Shown: positions 16,481-29,478 of the stretch, in pieces
Layout of the letters: each line of letters opens with the position of its first letter
Position numbering within the stretch: position 1 is the stretch's first letter
Origin: an uncultured Bacteroidota bacterium
Lineage (GTDB): Bacteria > Bacteroidota > Bacteroidia > Flavobacteriales > Flavobacteriaceae
Direction: 5' to 3'
Assembly: GCA_902550325.1 (NCBI GenBank)
Contig: CACCYT010000001.1
Coordinates: 109,174 to 173,173 of the forward strand
Length of the DNA stretch: 64,000 nt
Translations under genes and position numbers: made by a program
Notes under the pieces: model-generated
Told to the model about the DNA's origin: nothing
Database searches by the model: none
The model's input: only the letters and a program-made list of their open reading frames with translations

Positions 16481-16821
16481 AACTAAAACCGATTAAAGAC
16501 AAAAAGAAAATCGCCGCGGTTTTTGAAAAAGGAAGAGTGATAAACGGAAAAAACATTTCTATTAGGGTGTATAAGCTTAAGGGTGAGGAGCAGGGCTATG
16601 TGATAAGTGTGCCAAAAAAAAACTTTCCTCTTGCTGTAAAAAGAAATTTAATAAAAAGAAGGCTTAGGGTTATTCTTTCGAAAAGGTTGTTTAGTGAGGT
16701 TGGCGATGGTGTTTCTTTTTTTATTATTTATACTTCAAAAAAGATCTTAACTTCCTTAGAAATTGGAAACGACTTTAAAAAAGCCCAAACGCTTTTAAGT
16801 GAATGGGCTAATCCCAGTTAA
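16477..16821 (+). CDS. rnpA: Ribonuclease P protein component
   Basis: 114 aa basic protein; YVISVPKKNFPLAVKRNLIKRRLRVILSKRL matches the RnpA RNR motif region. Confidence 0.9.
   Translation: MKLKPIKDKKKIAAVFEKGRVINGKNISIRVYKLKGEEQGYVISVPKKNFPLAVKRNLIKRRLRVILSKRLFSEVGDGVSFFIIYTSKKILTSLEIGNDFKKAQTLLSEWANPS
16775..16810 (-). terminator. Putative rho-independent terminator for the minus-strand DUF262-AlbA_2 gene, inside the rnpA 3' end
   Basis: Inverted repeat AGCCCA-AA-CGCTTTTAAGTG-AA-TGGGCT (16782-16809); read on the minus strand the hairpin is followed by TTTTTAAA. Confidence 0.55.
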
Positions 16822-18925
16822 ATTTAATGTGCTCGTTCATTTCACTTGGTTTTAAAGGTTGGGTAGAATTGCCCGTTCTTACAAAGAATTTTTCTGTTCC
16901 ATCAATTGAAAAATAAACCGGTTCTCTATATTTAGACTTAATTTTAATTTGACAGACCTCTTTGTTATCAATAGTGTGGAATTCAACGCTAAGATATTTG
17001 TCAAATGTTTTTCCTAAGTGTTTTTTTATAACCCCTCTCAAAACAAGCTCAAATCCATCACTGTCTCCTTTGCTAAGAACAGAGTAGTCGTTTTCAAGCC
17101 CTAAAACATTCCCGCTATCGTCAACACCAATCAGAAGGGTTCCTCCGTCGACATTTAAAAACCCAGCTACAGTTTTAGCGATTACAAGCTCTAATTTTTT
17201 GTTTAAAGCTCTATTAACCATGTCATATCTTAGGCTAGACTTAAACTCCAACTTCTGAGACTCTCCCTTTAAGATTATTTCCTTTAGCCCACCTGCGCTC
17301 TGGGTTGGTTCGTTTTTGAGATTTAACCTTGAGTCTAACATTTCTTTTATCTTTTCTGCCCTTTGATTGACGAAGAGTGAGTAATCGTCAGTGGAAATAC
17401 CAAAAGAATCTATTCCGTTAATTATATGTGTTTTTAGGGTTTCCTCTAGCCGTTCGTTTAAACTGCTAAACTCCTCAATGTAATCCGATGGAGCTTTTGC
17501 GCCTATTTTTCTTTTATTTAATTTGTCGCTGACAAGAGTAATGTTCATCAAGCTGTTTTCGTTTCTGATCTGGCTTTTCTTTAAGAAGGCTTTAGGGAAA
17601 AAATGATGATAGTTTTTGCTGTATGCTCTTTTTAGGTGGTTGTTGTCTAGGTTAACCTTTCCGTTATCTAAAAAATCTTTTGGTTCCTGAAAACAAAGCA
17701 GGCACAAAATGGATTTGCAAAAACTGCTACCAGCGCTAAATGGGTATTCTACAAGATCTGATTTATCAATATTTATGTTGAAGTCTTTATAGTCAGGTCT
17801 TTTGTTTTCAATAATCAGATCGACTCTTTTAATGTCCAAAGCAAGTTTTCCTTCAGTACTGCTGGAGTATCTTTTTGACAAAGACACTCTCCAAAACAGC
17901 TCTTGTAAAAACTTTGCTTGATTGCCATTTGGCCTGTCTTTTGTTTTGTAAAAAAAGTATGAAAACGGAACAAGCAATGAGTCGTACGGAAGAAGGCTTG
18001 AAACAGGAATTCTGTATACAGACTTGAAATAATCAATGCTCTCTTTTATGCTGTCTATAACATCTTCCCAAACAGCTATTATTTCATTTTTATCTAAATT
18101 AAGAACCACTTTTCTTTTGCACTCTTTATTTTTCGATAGGACAAAAGAGGTGGTAAAAAGCAGAACGGATGTGTAGATTGTGTCGTACTGAACACTTTCA
18201 AGTTCTTTTAAAAGGTTGTTATAGCTTTGTTGCATATCAAACCCCTTTTCCTCGTCATAGGTTTTGGCGGACATTATTTCAAACAACGTTAGTGTTTGTC
18301 CGCCGGTATTAATTCTCGTAAAAACCTCAATTGCAGAGTCAATGTCGTCTTTTCTTAGCACAACTGTTGAAAAATCATACTGTTGAAAAAGGTTGTGGTA
18401 GTTATTGATTTTTGTAATAAGATTGTCGTCAAAACTGTTTTTAAGCTCTATAAAATGCTCAGTAAAGTGAAGCACTTTGCTTAAAGATATGTAGTTTGAC
18501 TCTGATGTTTTTTCGTGAGTTATAATAGGGTCTTCGCTTTCATTTATGTCAAGGTCCAGATTAATATAAATTTTTGAATAATCTGTAACTTTTTTTTCCC
18601 CCACCTTTGTTATTTGAGCGCCCCTATACGCCGCATAAAGCGATGTGATTCTTTGTTGACCGTCCAAAACATATTGAATTTTAATGTCATCTGGAATTGG
18701 AGGAAGCTCTAGGTTTCCTATGTTTTTTATGTCGTTTAGTCTCTGTTTTGTTTCCCACAGAATGAATGTTCCGATTGGGTAGCCTTTTAATATACTATCC
18801 AGCAAGCTTGCTGTTTTGTCTATGCTCCAAACGAAATCTCTTTGAAATTTAGGGATCTTGATTTCCCCTTTAGATATTTCGTTTATCAGGTCGCTATATT
18901 TTTTCGAGTCTGGTTTTGGCTGCAT
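16808..18925 (-). CDS. DUF262 (GmrSD/ParB-like nuclease superfamily) - HNH-like - AlbA_2 (Schlafen-type) fusion protein
   Basis: N-terminal KIPKFQRDFVWSIDKTASLLDSILKGYPIGTFILWE and QYVLDGQQRITSLYAAYRG (DUF262); middle YHHFFPKAFLKKSQIRNENSLMNITLVSDKLNKRKIG (DUF1524/HNH-like); C-terminal ESQKLEFKSSLRY...TVAGFLNVDGGTLLIGVDDSGNVLGLENDY...FFVRTGNSTQPL (AlbA_2). Confidence 0.85.
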   Translation of the reverse strand: MQPKPDSKKYSDLINEISKGEIKIPKFQRDFVWSIDKTASLLDSILKGYPIGTFILWETKQRLNDIKNIGNLELPPIPDDIKIQYVLDGQQRITSLYAAYRGAQITKVGEKKVTDYSKIYINLDLDINESEDPIITHEKTSESNYISLSKVLHFTEHFIELKNSFDDNLITKINNYHNLFQQYDFSTVVLRKDDIDSAIEVFTRINTGGQTLTLFEIMSAKTYDEEKGFDMQQSYNNLLKELESVQYDTIYTSVLLFTTSFVLSKNKECKRKVVLNLDKNEIIAVWEDVIDSIKESIDYFKSVYRIPVSSLLPYDSLLVPFSYFFYKTKDRPNGNQAKFLQELFWRVSLSKRYSSSTEGKLALDIKRVDLIIENKRPDYKDFNINIDKSDLVEYPFSAGSSFCKSILCLLCFQEPKDFLDNGKVNLDNNHLKRAYSKNYHHFFPKAFLKKSQIRNENSLMNITLVSDKLNKRKIGAKAPSDYIEEFSSLNERLEETLKTHIINGIDSFGISTDDYSLFVNQRAEKIKEMLDSRLNLKNEPTQSAGGLKEIILKGESQKLEFKSSLRYDMVNRALNKKLELVIAKTVAGFLNVDGGTLLIGVDDSGNVLGLENDYSVLSKGDSDGFELVLRGVIKKHLGKTFDKYLSVEFHTIDNKEVCQIKIKSKYREPVYFSIDGTEKFFVRTGNSTQPLKPSEMNEHIKFNWD

Positions 18926-19029
18926 ATTCGTGTCAATTTACAATATTATTTAATTTTAAACATTTTAGGTGCTTTTTTAACATTTCTAAATGCCTTTGAT
19001 GTGTTTTTTTAACTTTATAGTAAAAACTT

Positions 19030-25355: not shown

Positions 25356-26075
25356 TTACCACTGTTTAACTAGAAGTCTCATAAACTTTTTTTCTTGCTC
25401 AAATCCAGAGTAGTCAATTTCACTAGACCTTTCTTCTCTTTCTTTAGCAAATTTTGGGTTTTTCTCTCTAAACTCTTGATTGTTTTTCCATCCATCTAAA
25501 TAGTCTGCATATGTTTTATATCCTGTAACATTCCATGCTGACGCATCACTGTCAGGACCACCTACACTAATACCGCCTGTGGCAAAAGACCTAAAATCTC
25601 TTGGATATTTTTCGTTCATATCTCTTACCATCATTCTCCATTTTCTTAGCTCTGCATTGTCTTCTGAGCTAAAAACTGTTACCATTTGGAACGGATAAAT
25701 GTCGTCGCTAGACTGGTAAAACCTCCAGCCATTTGCCGAAAACACATTTTCATCGACAAAAGAATTCATTTTAGATGCAAACAACTGCCAGGAAGTATCT
25801 CCAAACTCTGGCGAATAGAGTTTTGCCATAGCTTCTGCTTCACCGCTAAATATTAACTCGTGAGTGAAGTTAAGGTCCGCTGCAGTAAACATTATTGCGT
25901 AAAGACTTACGGTTACTCCCTCATACTTGTTATTTGAGAAATAATCATCAATTAGTTTAACTACCATTTCCTCGTTTTCCGGCGCAACTTTTACTGCATA
26001 TGCCGAGAACCTGTTGCTTTGAGAGAATGAAAAAGCAAAAACCAATATCATTATAAAACTTAAAAAATTTTTCAT
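25356..26075 (-). CDS. Hypothetical secreted protein
   Basis: 239 aa with signal peptide MKNFLSFIMILVFAFSFSQS; no family recognised. Confidence 0.65.
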   Translation of the reverse strand: MKNFLSFIMILVFAFSFSQSNRFSAYAVKVAPENEEMVVKLIDDYFSNNKYEGVTVSLYAIMFTAADLNFTHELIFSGEAEAMAKLYSPEFGDTSWQLFASKMNSFVDENVFSANGWRFYQSSDDIYPFQMVTVFSSEDNAELRKWRMMVRDMNEKYPRDFRSFATGGISVGGPDSDASAWNVTGYKTYADYLDGWKNNQEFREKNPKFAKEREERSSEIDYSGFEQEKKFMRLLVKQW

Positions 26076-26130
26076 GGTTATTTTATTTAAAATTAAACGG
26101 CAAAGTTAATGAATTTCTATTTTTTTTTCT

Positions 26131-26574
26131 TTAAGAAAAGGTCAAAAACATTGCGGTGTGTGGAATGTTGTCCTCAAGATACTCATCACCTTTTGGAACA
26201 AAGCCGTGGAAAGTATAAAATTCAGTCAAATAAGACTGCGCAGAAATTTTAACAATATCTTCGTTTTTCTTTTTTAAATATTTTAAAGACTCTTTAACCA
26301 AGGCGTGCCCATACCCTTTACCTCTATGCGTTTTTTTTACAACTGTTCTTCCAAAGGAAGCTTCTTTAAAATATGTGTTTTTAGGAAAAATTCTAGTATA
26401 TGCACAAAGGATATTGTTTTCATATAATAAAAGGTGGTCTGCTTCAGCGTCTCTTCCATCAACATCTTGGTAGGGGCATTCTTGTTCAACAATAAAAACT
26501 TCTGATCTCAAGCTAAAAATTTTTTCAACCTCTTCTTTAGAGAGGTCGCACCACTTTTTAATAATTGTTTGCAT
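26131..26574 (-). CDS. GNAT family N-acetyltransferase, ElaA-like
   Basis: ORF runs to 26631 but the likely start is MQTIIKKW at 26574; FSLRSEVFIVEQECPYQDVDGRDAEADHLL, GRTVVKKTHRGKGYGHALV. Confidence 0.88.
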   Translation of the reverse strand: MQTIIKKWCDLSKEEVEKIFSLRSEVFIVEQECPYQDVDGRDAEADHLLLYENNILCAYTRIFPKNTYFKEASFGRTVVKKTHRGKGYGHALVKESLKYLKKKNEDIVKISAQSYLTEFYTFHGFVPKGDEYLEDNIPHTAMFLTFS

Positions 26575-26575
26575 T

Positions 26576-27013
26576 TTAAGAGTCTTTTTTGTTGATTTTA
26601 TTAACTCTTCTTTCGTGTCTTCCTCCTTCAAATTCAGTGTTGAGAAATATTTCTACGATTTCAATGGCTTCTTTTTTTTCTAAAAATCTAGCTGGTAATG
26701 ATAAAACATTTGCATTATTATGAGACCTAGATAGTTTGGCTGTTTCCTTATTCCAACATAATGCTGACCTAACTCCTTTGTGTTTATTTGCAGACATACT
26801 AACCCCTATTCCGCTTCCACATATTATTATACCTTTTAAGCTATCATCATTAGAGACTTGCTCTGCTAACGGATGTGCAAAATCTGGATAATCTACACTC
26901 TCTTCGCTGTCACAACCTAAATTATTTACGCCATAACCCTTACTTTCTAAAACTTTTTTTATTTCGTTTTTTAAAGTTGTTCCTGCGTGATCATTTGCTA
27001 ATAATATGTTCAT
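26576..27013 (-). CDS. rpiB: Ribose 5-phosphate isomerase B
   Basis: LLANDHAGTTLKNEI, GIIICGSGIGVSMSANKHKGVRSALCWN, HNNANVLSLPARFL. Confidence 0.95.
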   Translation of the reverse strand: MNILLANDHAGTTLKNEIKKVLESKGYGVNNLGCDSEESVDYPDFAHPLAEQVSNDDSLKGIIICGSGIGVSMSANKHKGVRSALCWNKETAKLSRSHNNANVLSLPARFLEKKEAIEIVEIFLNTEFEGGRHERRVNKINKKDS

Positions 27014-27378
27014 AAGGTTCTTAGTAATTGTTTATAAGTTTGATTGTTTTTGATAACTGTTTTTTTATCATCCTTTTTTAACAAATTTAAGCTAATTATT
27101 GACATAATATTTTTTTTGATTTATCAACCGTTATCGTTTTAATAGTATTTTAATATCTTATCTAACTCTTTGTATATAAGCGTTCTTAGAGTTTACATTT
27201 TTGTTTATGTTATGTTAATAACCCTCGTATGCTTATATGTTGTTTTTTTTATAGTACATATTAACAAACAATCATCATTATAGGTATTTATATTTTATAA
27301 TTATAATATTAGTGATTAATAACAATTGTTGATTTTTATAAAATTTAATCAATTAAGACATAATTTTATAAATTCTTA

Positions 27379-29478
27379 ATGAACAGAATAGATTTAAACA
27401 TTTTAGAAAAAAAAGCGGCTAGGTTGTTTTTTGAAAACAAGAAAAAAACCTATAACATCAAGCAAATTAAGTTTTTTTTAAATGTAAAGATTGATTCAAT
27501 TTATATTAAAGATTTGTTGAAAAACCTTTTCCTTAAAAAATGCATCAATATTAATGAGCATGATAAATACAGCTTTAACAAAAGTTTGGTTTTTTTAGTT
27601 GGTATTATTGGAAAAAGAAAAATAAAACTGATTGATTTGGAATCATCAGCTGAGTTAGATATTAGTAGAAAAGAAAGCGCAGGGTTTTTTGAAAACGATG
27701 AGGTATATTATTCTATTAATAAGAAAGGAAAAGTTAATATTTTATCTGTCAAAAAAAGAACAGATCAAAAGTTTGTTGGAGAGGTAGAAATAAATAAAAA
27801 TATTAAAAGTGTATTTATAAGAAAACAAAATGTACGTTTTATTATCGATGATAAGCAAGCAAAGAAAGAAGATTTAGTTGTAATGAGACTAAAAGACTGG
27901 AAACATGAAGATCCAGAAGGAGAGGTTTTAAAAGTTATTGGAAAAGCAAGCGATAGTGAGGCACAAACGCACGCTATTTTGGAAGAGTTTTCTCTTCCTT
28001 ATGTTTTTTCAGACAAGGTTGAACAAGAAACAAATAATATAAAAAAAGAAGAAAGTTTAGAAAAATACAGGGAAGATCACAGCACTAAATTAACATTTAC
28101 AATTGATCCTGATGATGCTAAGGATTTTGATGATGCCTTATCATTTAAGAAGCTTGATGATTCGAGTATAGAAGTTGGTGTTCATATTGCTGATGTATCC
28201 CATTATGTTAAGAAAGAAACCGAGCTCGATAAAGAAGCTTTTTATCGAGCAACAAGTGTTTATTTGGCAGACAGAGTTGTTCCTATGTTGCCAGAAAAAC
28301 TTTCTAATGATCTTTGCTCTTTAAATCCTAAAGAAAAAAAGAATGTCTTTTCTGTTTTTTTTATTTTTAGTAAAAACCATAAAATTTCAAACATAAAGTT
28401 TTGTAAATCTCTCATCGTTTCTGACGAGAGGTTTTCCTATGAAGAAGCACAACACATAATAGAGAATAAAGAGAACACTATTCCTGCGGAAAAAACAATA
28501 TCGGGTAATGAAAAAAAAGTAAACAAAAACCTTTTTAACTCAATAAAAAAACTTTATTCAATATCTAAATCGCTTAAAAAAGAAAGAGAAGATAAAGGGT
28601 CTATTTTTTTTAATAAAGAGGAAATAAGATTCAAAGTTGATGAAAAAGGAAGCCCTGTAGGATATAAAATAAAGAAGCAAAAAGAAGCAAATTTTCTAAT
28701 TGAAGAATTTATGCTTTTGGCAAACAAAGCAGTTGCCACAAAAATTAAAGAAAACACAAGATCAGGGGTTTACAGAGTACATGATTTGCCAGATGAAAAA
28801 AAATTAGTAGAAATTGAAAGGTTTGTAAAAAACCTAGGATATAATAATAGGCTTGTAAATTCACAAAACATAAATAAAGAAATAAATACTTTGCTAAAAG
28901 CATGTGAAGGAAAGCCCGAAAAAAATGTCATAGATATGATGGTAATAAGAGCGATGAGTAAGGCAAAATACAGCTCACAAAACATAGGTCATTTTGGACT
29001 TAAGTTTGAAAACTACTCTCATTTCACATCACCAATTAGGAGATATCCAGACCTTATGGTTCACAGAATTTTATTTTCAATCCTGAAGAAAGAAAAATAC
29101 TATGACAAAGAAATAGAAGAAAAATGTTTTCATTGTAGTCAAAGAGAGGAGTTGGCCACCAAAGCTGAAAGAGCCTCCACCAAACTAATGCAGGTAAAAT
29201 ACATGTCAAAACGTCTAAATGAAAAATTTGCAGGGATTGTTTCTGGCATAAATGAAAGAGGCATTTTTGTTGAAGTGATTTCAAACAAATGCGAAGGCTT
29301 TGTCAGAATGAAAGACATTCCACACGACTACTTTGTTTACAATTACAAAACAAACTCTTTAATCGGTCAAAACACAAAAGAAGAATACTGCCTAGGCGAT
29401 AAGGTTTTAATAAGGGTAGAAAAAACCAATCTAGAAAAAAAACATATTGATTTTAAGATTCTCAGCAAGTCGGAATAA
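27379..29478 (+). CDS. rnr: Ribonuclease R
   Basis: TFTIDPDDAKDFDDALSF, VGVHIADVSHYV, AKYSSQNIGHFGLKFENYSHFTSPIRRYPDLMVHRIL, C-terminal S1 domain. Confidence 0.96.
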   Translation: MNRIDLNILEKKAARLFFENKKKTYNIKQIKFFLNVKIDSIYIKDLLKNLFLKKCININEHDKYSFNKSLVFLVGIIGKRKIKLIDLESSAELDISRKESAGFFENDEVYYSINKKGKVNILSVKKRTDQKFVGEVEINKNIKSVFIRKQNVRFIIDDKQAKKEDLVVMRLKDWKHEDPEGEVLKVIGKASDSEAQTHAILEEFSLPYVFSDKVEQETNNIKKEESLEKYREDHSTKLTFTIDPDDAKDFDDALSFKKLDDSSIEVGVHIADVSHYVKKETELDKEAFYRATSVYLADRVVPMLPEKLSNDLCSLNPKEKKNVFSVFFIFSKNHKISNIKFCKSLIVSDERFSYEEAQHIIENKENTIPAEKTISGNEKKVNKNLFNSIKKLYSISKSLKKEREDKGSIFFNKEEIRFKVDEKGSPVGYKIKKQKEANFLIEEFMLLANKAVATKIKENTRSGVYRVHDLPDEKKLVEIERFVKNLGYNNRLVNSQNINKEINTLLKACEGKPEKNVIDMMVIRAMSKAKYSSQNIGHFGLKFENYSHFTSPIRRYPDLMVHRILFSILKKEKYYDKEIEEKCFHCSQREELATKAERASTKLMQVKYMSKRLNEKFAGIVSGINERGIFVEVISNKCEGFVRMKDIPHDYFVYNYKTNSLIGQNTKEEYCLGDKVLIRVEKTNLEKKHIDFKILSKSE

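Follow-up and report, generated by a model that had tools for sequence, protein, structure and literature searches.

The stretch of 64,000 nucleotides analyzed here (contig CACCYT010000001.1 of an uncultured member of the Flavobacteriaceae; the whole stretch is called the window in the following) carries a gene for a protein of 705 amino acids, in which a DUF262 domain, a DUF1524/HNH-like nuclease region and a Schlafen-type AlbA_2 domain are joined in one polypeptide. This fusion protein appears to be a so far undescribed kind of GmrSD/BrxU enzyme with a Schlafen-type second module. We lean towards reading it as an accessory anti-phage nuclease that accompanies methylation-based defense systems and combines a BrxU-type DNA cutter with a Schlafen RNase effector. 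An earlier note, made from the DNA letters only, had described the same three domains, a kinship to the GmrSD/BrxU enzymes, a location at positions 16808-18925 and a neighboring type I restriction-modification (RM) operon. The coordinates proved to be exact, with the open reading frame (ORF) of 705 codons lying on the minus strand. The domain architecture was recovered by Pfam, alignment, AlphaFold and Foldseek, and the kinship by the DUF262 match in Pfam, the DGQQR motif and BrxU as top match in Foldseek. The operon is indeed present with the gene order hsdR-hsdS-hsdM on the plus strand, divergent from the fusion gene and separated from it by 104 bp (Table 1).

Both terminal domains were detected by Pfam above the curated cut-offs, with 115.5 bits for PF03235 (cut-off 33.2) and 65.9 bits for PF04326 (cut-off 25.3). 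The AlphaFold model of the protein, built from a 48-row alignment, had a mean predicted local distance difference test (pLDDT) score of 87.1, and only a short linker at the junction of the HNH and AlbA_2 regions fell below 50. In Foldseek searches against the PDB, BrxU was the top match for residues 1-535 (7p9k, E 2e-13, 621 columns) and DndI was also matched (9jfl, E 4e-4), while the C-terminal tail matched DIP2311, the DNA-binding and tRNase domains of SAMD9, SLFN13, SLFN11, SLFN5 and SLFN14. An ORF artefact, a misassembly or a chance product was ruled out by the intact ORF, by collinear relatives in 26 further genomes and by purifying selection.

For the DUF262 region, BrxU and SspE were matched in the profile search. 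The residues D88, G89, Q91 and R92 of the DGQQR motif are conserved in 63 of 64 relatives and Q90 in 58 of them. The nucleotide motif of the (R)LFDS type is present as LLDS at residues 41-44, with D43 kept in 60 and S44 in 63 of the 64. The HNH-like segment reads YHHFFPKAFL...N...N...LNKRKIG; in the 48-row alignment H440, H441, P444, N457 and N461 are invariant, and GmrSD_C (PF07510) was matched in 10 of the 48 aligned relatives. The GmrSD-type enzymes attack modified DNA in an NTP-dependent manner. BrxU, a single-chain type IV restriction enzyme of this family (PDB 7p9k/7p9m), shares the order of DUF262 followed by a DUF1524/HNH or HNH-like part, the DGQQR and LLDS-type motifs and the association with bacteriophage exclusion (BREX) systems, and it is the best structural match. 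It differs in having no AlbA_2 domain and in carrying DHIYP where the 705-residue protein has HHFFP, and the sequence likeness of the two proteins is mainly confined to DUF262. In BrxU, mutation of S42, Q101, R102, D474 or H475 leads to loss of resistance and of DNA cleavage (PMC8565348). The counterparts in the fusion protein are S44, Q91 and R92 in the DUF262 domain and H440 (for D474) and H441 in the HHFFP motif. The D474 and H475 mutants of BrxU still hydrolyze nucleoside triphosphates (NTPs), so that the NTPase and nuclease activities can be separated, and ATP moves the enzyme from dimers to monomers (PMC8565348). The phosphorothioate-system nucleases SspE and DndI are alike in the DUF262 fold, as seen in the SspE profile match and the DndI structure 9jfl. 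They sense phosphorothioate marks, whereas the systems linked to the fusion gene rely on methylation, and the scanned neighbors included no Ssp or Dnd genes.

The AlbA_2 tail has kept the acidic triad of the Schlafen RNases (E555, E560 and D603; Table 1). D602, the first aspartate of the GVDD motif, varies among 11 diverse rows of the AlbA_2 subfamily, unlike D603, and the five-residue spacing of E555 and E560 is that of SLFN13. A profile of the 11 rows matched the structures of SLFN12, SLFN13, SLFN14 and SLFN11 with E-values from 2.6e-10 to 4.5e-9, thereby aligning the EFK and GVDD motifs (the SLFN13 entry 5yd0 is labeled Schlafen 8 in the file). The tripod of E205, E210 and D248 is the putative active site of SLFN13, and the equivalent residues have been mutated in human SLFN13 (PMC5862951). 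In SAMD9L the triad is E186/E198/D243, and mutants in E198/D243 neither shut off translation nor restrict virus (PMC11221667). The AlbA_2 RNase domains of SLFN13, SLFN11 and SAMD9L thus have both the fold and the E-E-D triad in common with the tail, which is probably catalytic as far as its sequence tells. The fusion protein differs in having neither the two-lobed N'-domain of the Schlafens nor a helicase, and its single lobe is joined to a restriction-type nuclease.

The nearest relatives of the AlbA_2 domain in the genomes of the family (42-50% identity) are of two types, the N-terminal parts of which were judged by eye. Proteins of about 260-280 amino acids seem to consist of two membrane segments and AlbA_2. 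In those of 455-484 amino acids, AlbA_2 seems to follow a membrane segment that is preceded by a periplasmic solute-binding-like domain. Judged from this arrangement, AlbA_2 is in the output position of a receptor in these relatives. The intact, almost invariant triad and this output position lead us to prefer an effector role of AlbA_2 over the sensing of nucleic acids or ligands, which the earlier note had considered. As a separate observation, the flavobacterial proteins that seem to have a solute-binding domain, a membrane segment and AlbA_2, or two membrane segments and AlbA_2 (L081, L084 and also L085-L096), resemble receptors in which a Schlafen-type domain gives the output.

An alternative that we regard as possible, though clearly less probable, is a type IV-like restriction enzyme whose AlbA_2 domain only binds nucleic acid, so that it positions or recognizes DNA or oligomerizes and does not cut RNA. 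In prokaryotic Argonaute (pAgo) proteins, AlbA_2 has been described as DNA-binding (PMC6299218), and the SAMD9 domain binds DNA (7ksp). K562, K576, K584 and R683 are invariant basic residues in the subfamily rows, and DUF4268, DUF4357 and DNA_binding_1 exist as add-ons in the GmrSD family (PMC4619093). However, mere binding would not need the strict keeping of three acidic catalytic positions, and neither the output position in the receptor-like relatives nor the relatives of 535 amino acids, which are conserved on their own without AlbA_2, fit this alternative well. It is unlikely that the DUF262-HNH nuclease is switched on by AlbA_2 upon sensing of a ligand or of phage nucleic acid. AlbA_2 is joined to several defense proteins, including an AlbA_2-NACHT protein at one of the fused loci (L017), which would suit such a role, but BrxU and SspE are gated by NTP binding and hydrolysis at DUF262, and the intact triad and the output position speak for the effector here as well.

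Evidence for an accessory defense nuclease also comes from the neighboring genes. The family search covered 84,980 genomes and gave 76 loci confirmed by tblastn. Besides the window, 26 loci in as many genomes encode collinear fused relatives (51-63% identity), and a defense or methylation partner was found at 17 of the 27 fused loci including the window. In four of them (L007, L008, L021, L037) the fusion gene is embedded in a type I operon, co-oriented with it and flanked by hsdR and hsdM. In BREX loci it is located 3' of PglX-PglZ-BrxL, as seen in the family scan for L014 and by gene clustering for L013, L015 and L017; L062 also has BREX genes and, at its contig end, the first part of the fusion gene. 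Other partners upstream of the fusion gene are a type IIG enzyme with an HATPase protein (L038), an SNF2 helicase, a IIG enzyme and an SMC-like ATPase (L009), a D12 methyltransferase with an AlwI endonuclease (L010), DruE-like and UvrD helicases (L032) and an HsdR-like fragment (L016). Furthermore, the fusion gene occurs in Eco57I/DrmMI-like methyltransferase loci (L018, L023) and near a type I R subunit and an N6-methyltransferase (L002). A PF02384 methyltransferase is encoded within 12.5 kb of the fusion gene in 14 of the 26 genomes, compared to 0.60 expected from the genome-wide density (Poisson P 5e-15, for a distance chosen after the data had been seen and for 26 relatives that are non-independent). 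No single lineage carries this linkage, since at least seven kinds of partner take part in it. The earlier note had staked its proposal beforehand on homologues being linked to defense genes such as those of RM or BREX; such links were found, with type I RM, BREX, IIG and AlwI genes among the neighbors.

Two side observations concern these loci. In three of the type I operons, one or two small conserved genes (about 190-215 and 300 amino acids) with no assigned function follow hsdS (L007:14934-15500, L008:14901-16370, L037:5428-6967). In the BREX locus L017, a protein of 1089 amino acids with AlbA_2 (PF04326, E 3e-9) and NACHT (E 2e-5) domains is encoded downstream of the fusion gene (L017:14715-17981); it is possibly a defense protein similar to nucleotide-binding leucine-rich repeat proteins with a Schlafen effector.

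In the window itself, the fusion gene is convergent with rnpA, with an overlap of 14 bp. The order rnpA, GNAT gene, rpiB, rnr of the window recurs in another genome of its genus (G151), where the interval between rnpA and the GNAT gene (contig C3, L106:544-8600) contains, mainly by sequence reading, McrC, McrB, two C5-cytosine methyltransferases, a helix-turn-helix protein and a CAP-like protein; the AAA domains of the McrB-like protein were confirmed by Pfam. Because G151 has these McrBC-like and C5-methyltransferase genes at the site of the window, the rnpA/rpiB site is, on the basis of gene content, a defense slot with exchanged content, holding modification-linked restriction genes both times. 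Homology of the 705-residue protein to HsdR, HsdM or HsdS was not detected in Pfam, PADLOC or NCBIfam searches. As a side observation, the G+C content drops to about 0.27-0.28 over rpiB-rnr (26000-29000 of the window) from about 0.35-0.39 in the preceding genes.

The gene neighborhoods also bear on two further explanations. The position between hsdR and hsdM or after brxL would be in line with a role within the RM or BREX complex of the partner, as a subunit or as a regulator such as a self-control or alleviation factor. We consider this improbable, as close relatives are found next to many partners that are unrelated to each other (type I, BREX, IIG, AlwI, DruE-like) and elsewhere alone, and BrxU sits within a BREX locus yet works independently (PMC8565348). 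A mobile housekeeping or gene-regulatory protein outside defense, as five loci with no defense neighbors (L004, L006, L011, L012, L045) might suggest, is very improbable in view of the methyltransferase linkage, the exchange of the defense island in the sister species and the BrxU fold.

Several points weigh against an accessory nuclease with an RNase effector. About 10 of the 27 fused loci have no recognizable defense partner, some of them on short contigs. Pfam gives no DUF1524 match with E < 1 in the 705-residue protein. At the HNH motif, histidine takes the place of aspartate or glutamate as first catalytic residue, giving H-H-N-N for E/D-H-N-N. For the tail, the Schlafen triad may be common in bacterial AlbA_2 proteins generally, AlbA_2 is treated as a DNA-binding domain by some authors (PMC6299218), and the protein has a single AlbA_2 lobe, compared to the two-lobed, U-shaped N'-domain of vertebrate Schlafens.

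The hosts of the fused relatives are Bacteroidota, Alpha- and Gammaproteobacteria, Myxococcota, Zixiibacteriota, Calditrichota and, as metagenome-assembled genomes, a member of the Fraserbacteria and a Nitrosopumilus. Relatives of about 535 amino acids with no AlbA_2 domain (L024-L028, L033-L035, L039) have 38-48% identity. Loss of AlbA_2 in L020 was rejected because an AlbA_2 remnant is absent from the locus, so that this is a genuinely short relative, while L019 is cut off by the contig end. Pairwise ratios of non-synonymous to synonymous substitution rates (dN/dS; Nei-Gojobori, five groups of close relatives) were mostly 0.00-0.1 in all four regions including AlbA_2, with a maximum of 0.36 for one pair in the HNH region. 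As dN/dS is low in every region, all parts of the protein are evidently maintained by purifying selection. A minor observation is that the fusion gene of Pacificibacter maritimus (L013, G302:C2:378561-380663) has one in-frame TGA in the genome-search match and an ORF start about 25 codons late; inactivation or a shifted start of this gene is possible.

The pairing of a DUF262-HNH protein with AlbA_2 has probably been made twice, as far as can be told from sequence trees. The same architecture occurs in Sinorhizobium (L097), haloarchaea (L098, L099) and another flavobacterium (L082). The DUF262-HNH halves of L097-L099 are only about 22-24% identical to that of the window protein, and for L082 just 94 residues align (37%), while the AlbA_2 domains of all four are 38-46% identical to that of the window protein. 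In the DUF262-HNH tree these four form a clade B apart from clade A of the window, with unfused clades intervening; for this tree, the program warns of some long branches joining. A single origin of the fusion was rejected in the approximately unbiased (AU) test, the constrained tree having a log-likelihood lower by 154 (p-AU 1e-41). Two unfused sisters of clade B carry other extensions at the C-terminus, so that the position behind DUF262-HNH seems to accept different second modules. The protein of Nostoc (L108:6001-8319, 772 amino acids) has an extension of about 250 residues and adjoins DISARM drmC, and that of Paracoccus (L107:6001-7959, 652 amino acids) has one of about 130 residues and is encoded near two large helicases. 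Neither extension has a Pfam match. Two clade-B loci are also near methyltransferases or RM genes.

Among known systems, the best PADLOC model was PDC-M55C, a candidate defense protein of unstated function (E 4.7e-61, residues 2-530), which has 554 positions and no AlbA_2. Membership in a multi-gene PDC-M55 system was rejected, since a search for PDC-M55A (PDLC04707) in 17 genomes of relatives gave no consistent partner: any match was present in 7 of the 17 and strong matches only in G315 and G316, on contigs other than that of the fusion gene. NCBIfam has no model for the 705-residue protein, and no report of a DUF262 and AlbA_2 fusion was found in the open-access literature, the search not extending to subscription papers and most preprints; nor did this literature yield a paper on PDC-M55 or on CbCash. 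A phylogenomic survey of the GmrSD family lists DUF4268, DUF4357 and DNA_binding_1 as extra domains and does not name AlbA_2 (PMC4619093). A 2026 survey of BREX, in the passages retrieved, names Schlafen RNases and HNH enzymes of the GmrSD type as auxiliary effectors that are distinct from each other (PMC12839542). Both types thus occur with BREX as separate proteins there, while the fusion unites them in one polypeptide. With a PADLOC candidate model for the N-terminal part alone, no NCBIfam model and no such paper, calling the protein under-described, as had been done before, is fair.

By homology to BrxU, the DUF262 NTPase would gate the HNH nuclease, so that incoming DNA is cut. The target would probably be DNA which the partner system cannot handle, for example modified phage DNA; DNA without the methyl mark of the partner is the other candidate. 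The differing marks of the partner systems slightly favor modified DNA, the cutting of which would complement every partner, as has been shown for BrxU with BREX. AlbA_2 would most likely be a second, RNA-cutting (tRNase-like) effector, presumably kept inactive until DUF262-HNH engages its target and then released or activated by the NTP-gated cycle. Its activation would stop translation in cells where restriction fails. The full form of this model, a factor with two warheads assembled at least twice, in which HNH first cuts invading (modified) DNA and AlbA_2 upon a strong trigger cuts tRNA and shuts down the cell, is put forward as tentative. If true, it would link type IV-like restriction directly with abortive infection. 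A conserved single-chain fusion, present in several phyla and with many methylation partners, would show restriction and translation shut-off wired in one molecule, and it would offer a compact system for studying how the Schlafen domain, common to the human antiviral SLFN and SAMD9 proteins, is restrained.

Table 1 Positions of the fusion gene, its domains and key residues, and the adjacent type I RM operon in the window
Feature	Position	Strand	Remarks
Fusion gene	16808..18925	minus	complete ORF, 705 amino acids; ATG at 18925, stop at 16808, no internal stops
DUF262/GmrSD_N ParB-like NTPase domain, residues 11-221	18263..18895	minus	PF03235, E 4.5e-33
DGQQR motif, residues 88-92	18650..18664	minus	conserved across relatives
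HNH/DUF1524-like region, residues 426-535	17321..17650	minus	invariant residues, GmrSD_C in relatives, BrxU fold
HHFFP motif, residues 440-444	17594..17608	minus	placed at BrxU DHIYP (D474, H475) by motif, not by a printed alignment
Low-confidence linker, residues 538-545	17291..17314	minus	HNH/AlbA_2 junction; sole segment with pLDDT < 50
Schlafen AlbA_2 domain, residues 555-691	16853..17263	minus	PF04326, E 6.3e-18
E555, first acidic residue of the triad	17261..17263	minus	27/27 of fused clade; 11/11 diverse AlbA_2 rows
E560, second acidic residue of the triad	17246..17248	minus	27/27 of fused clade; 11/11 diverse AlbA_2 rows
D603, third acidic residue of the triad (second D of GVDD)	17117..17119	minus	26/27 of fused clade; 11/11 diverse AlbA_2 rows; aligns with D of SLFN13 GVDD
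Intergenic gap of 104 bp between fusion gene and divergent hsdR	18926..19029	.	promoter-like sites by consensus only
HsdR, type I restriction subunit, 936 amino acids	19030..21840	plus	PADLOC REase_I E 4e-48; PRK11448 E 2e-108, under curated cut-off
HsdS, type I specificity subunit, 488 amino acids	21840..23306	plus	PADLOC Specificity_I E 7e-75
HsdM, type I N6-adenine methyltransferase, 508 amino acids	23308..24834	plus	PADLOC MTase_I E 2e-185

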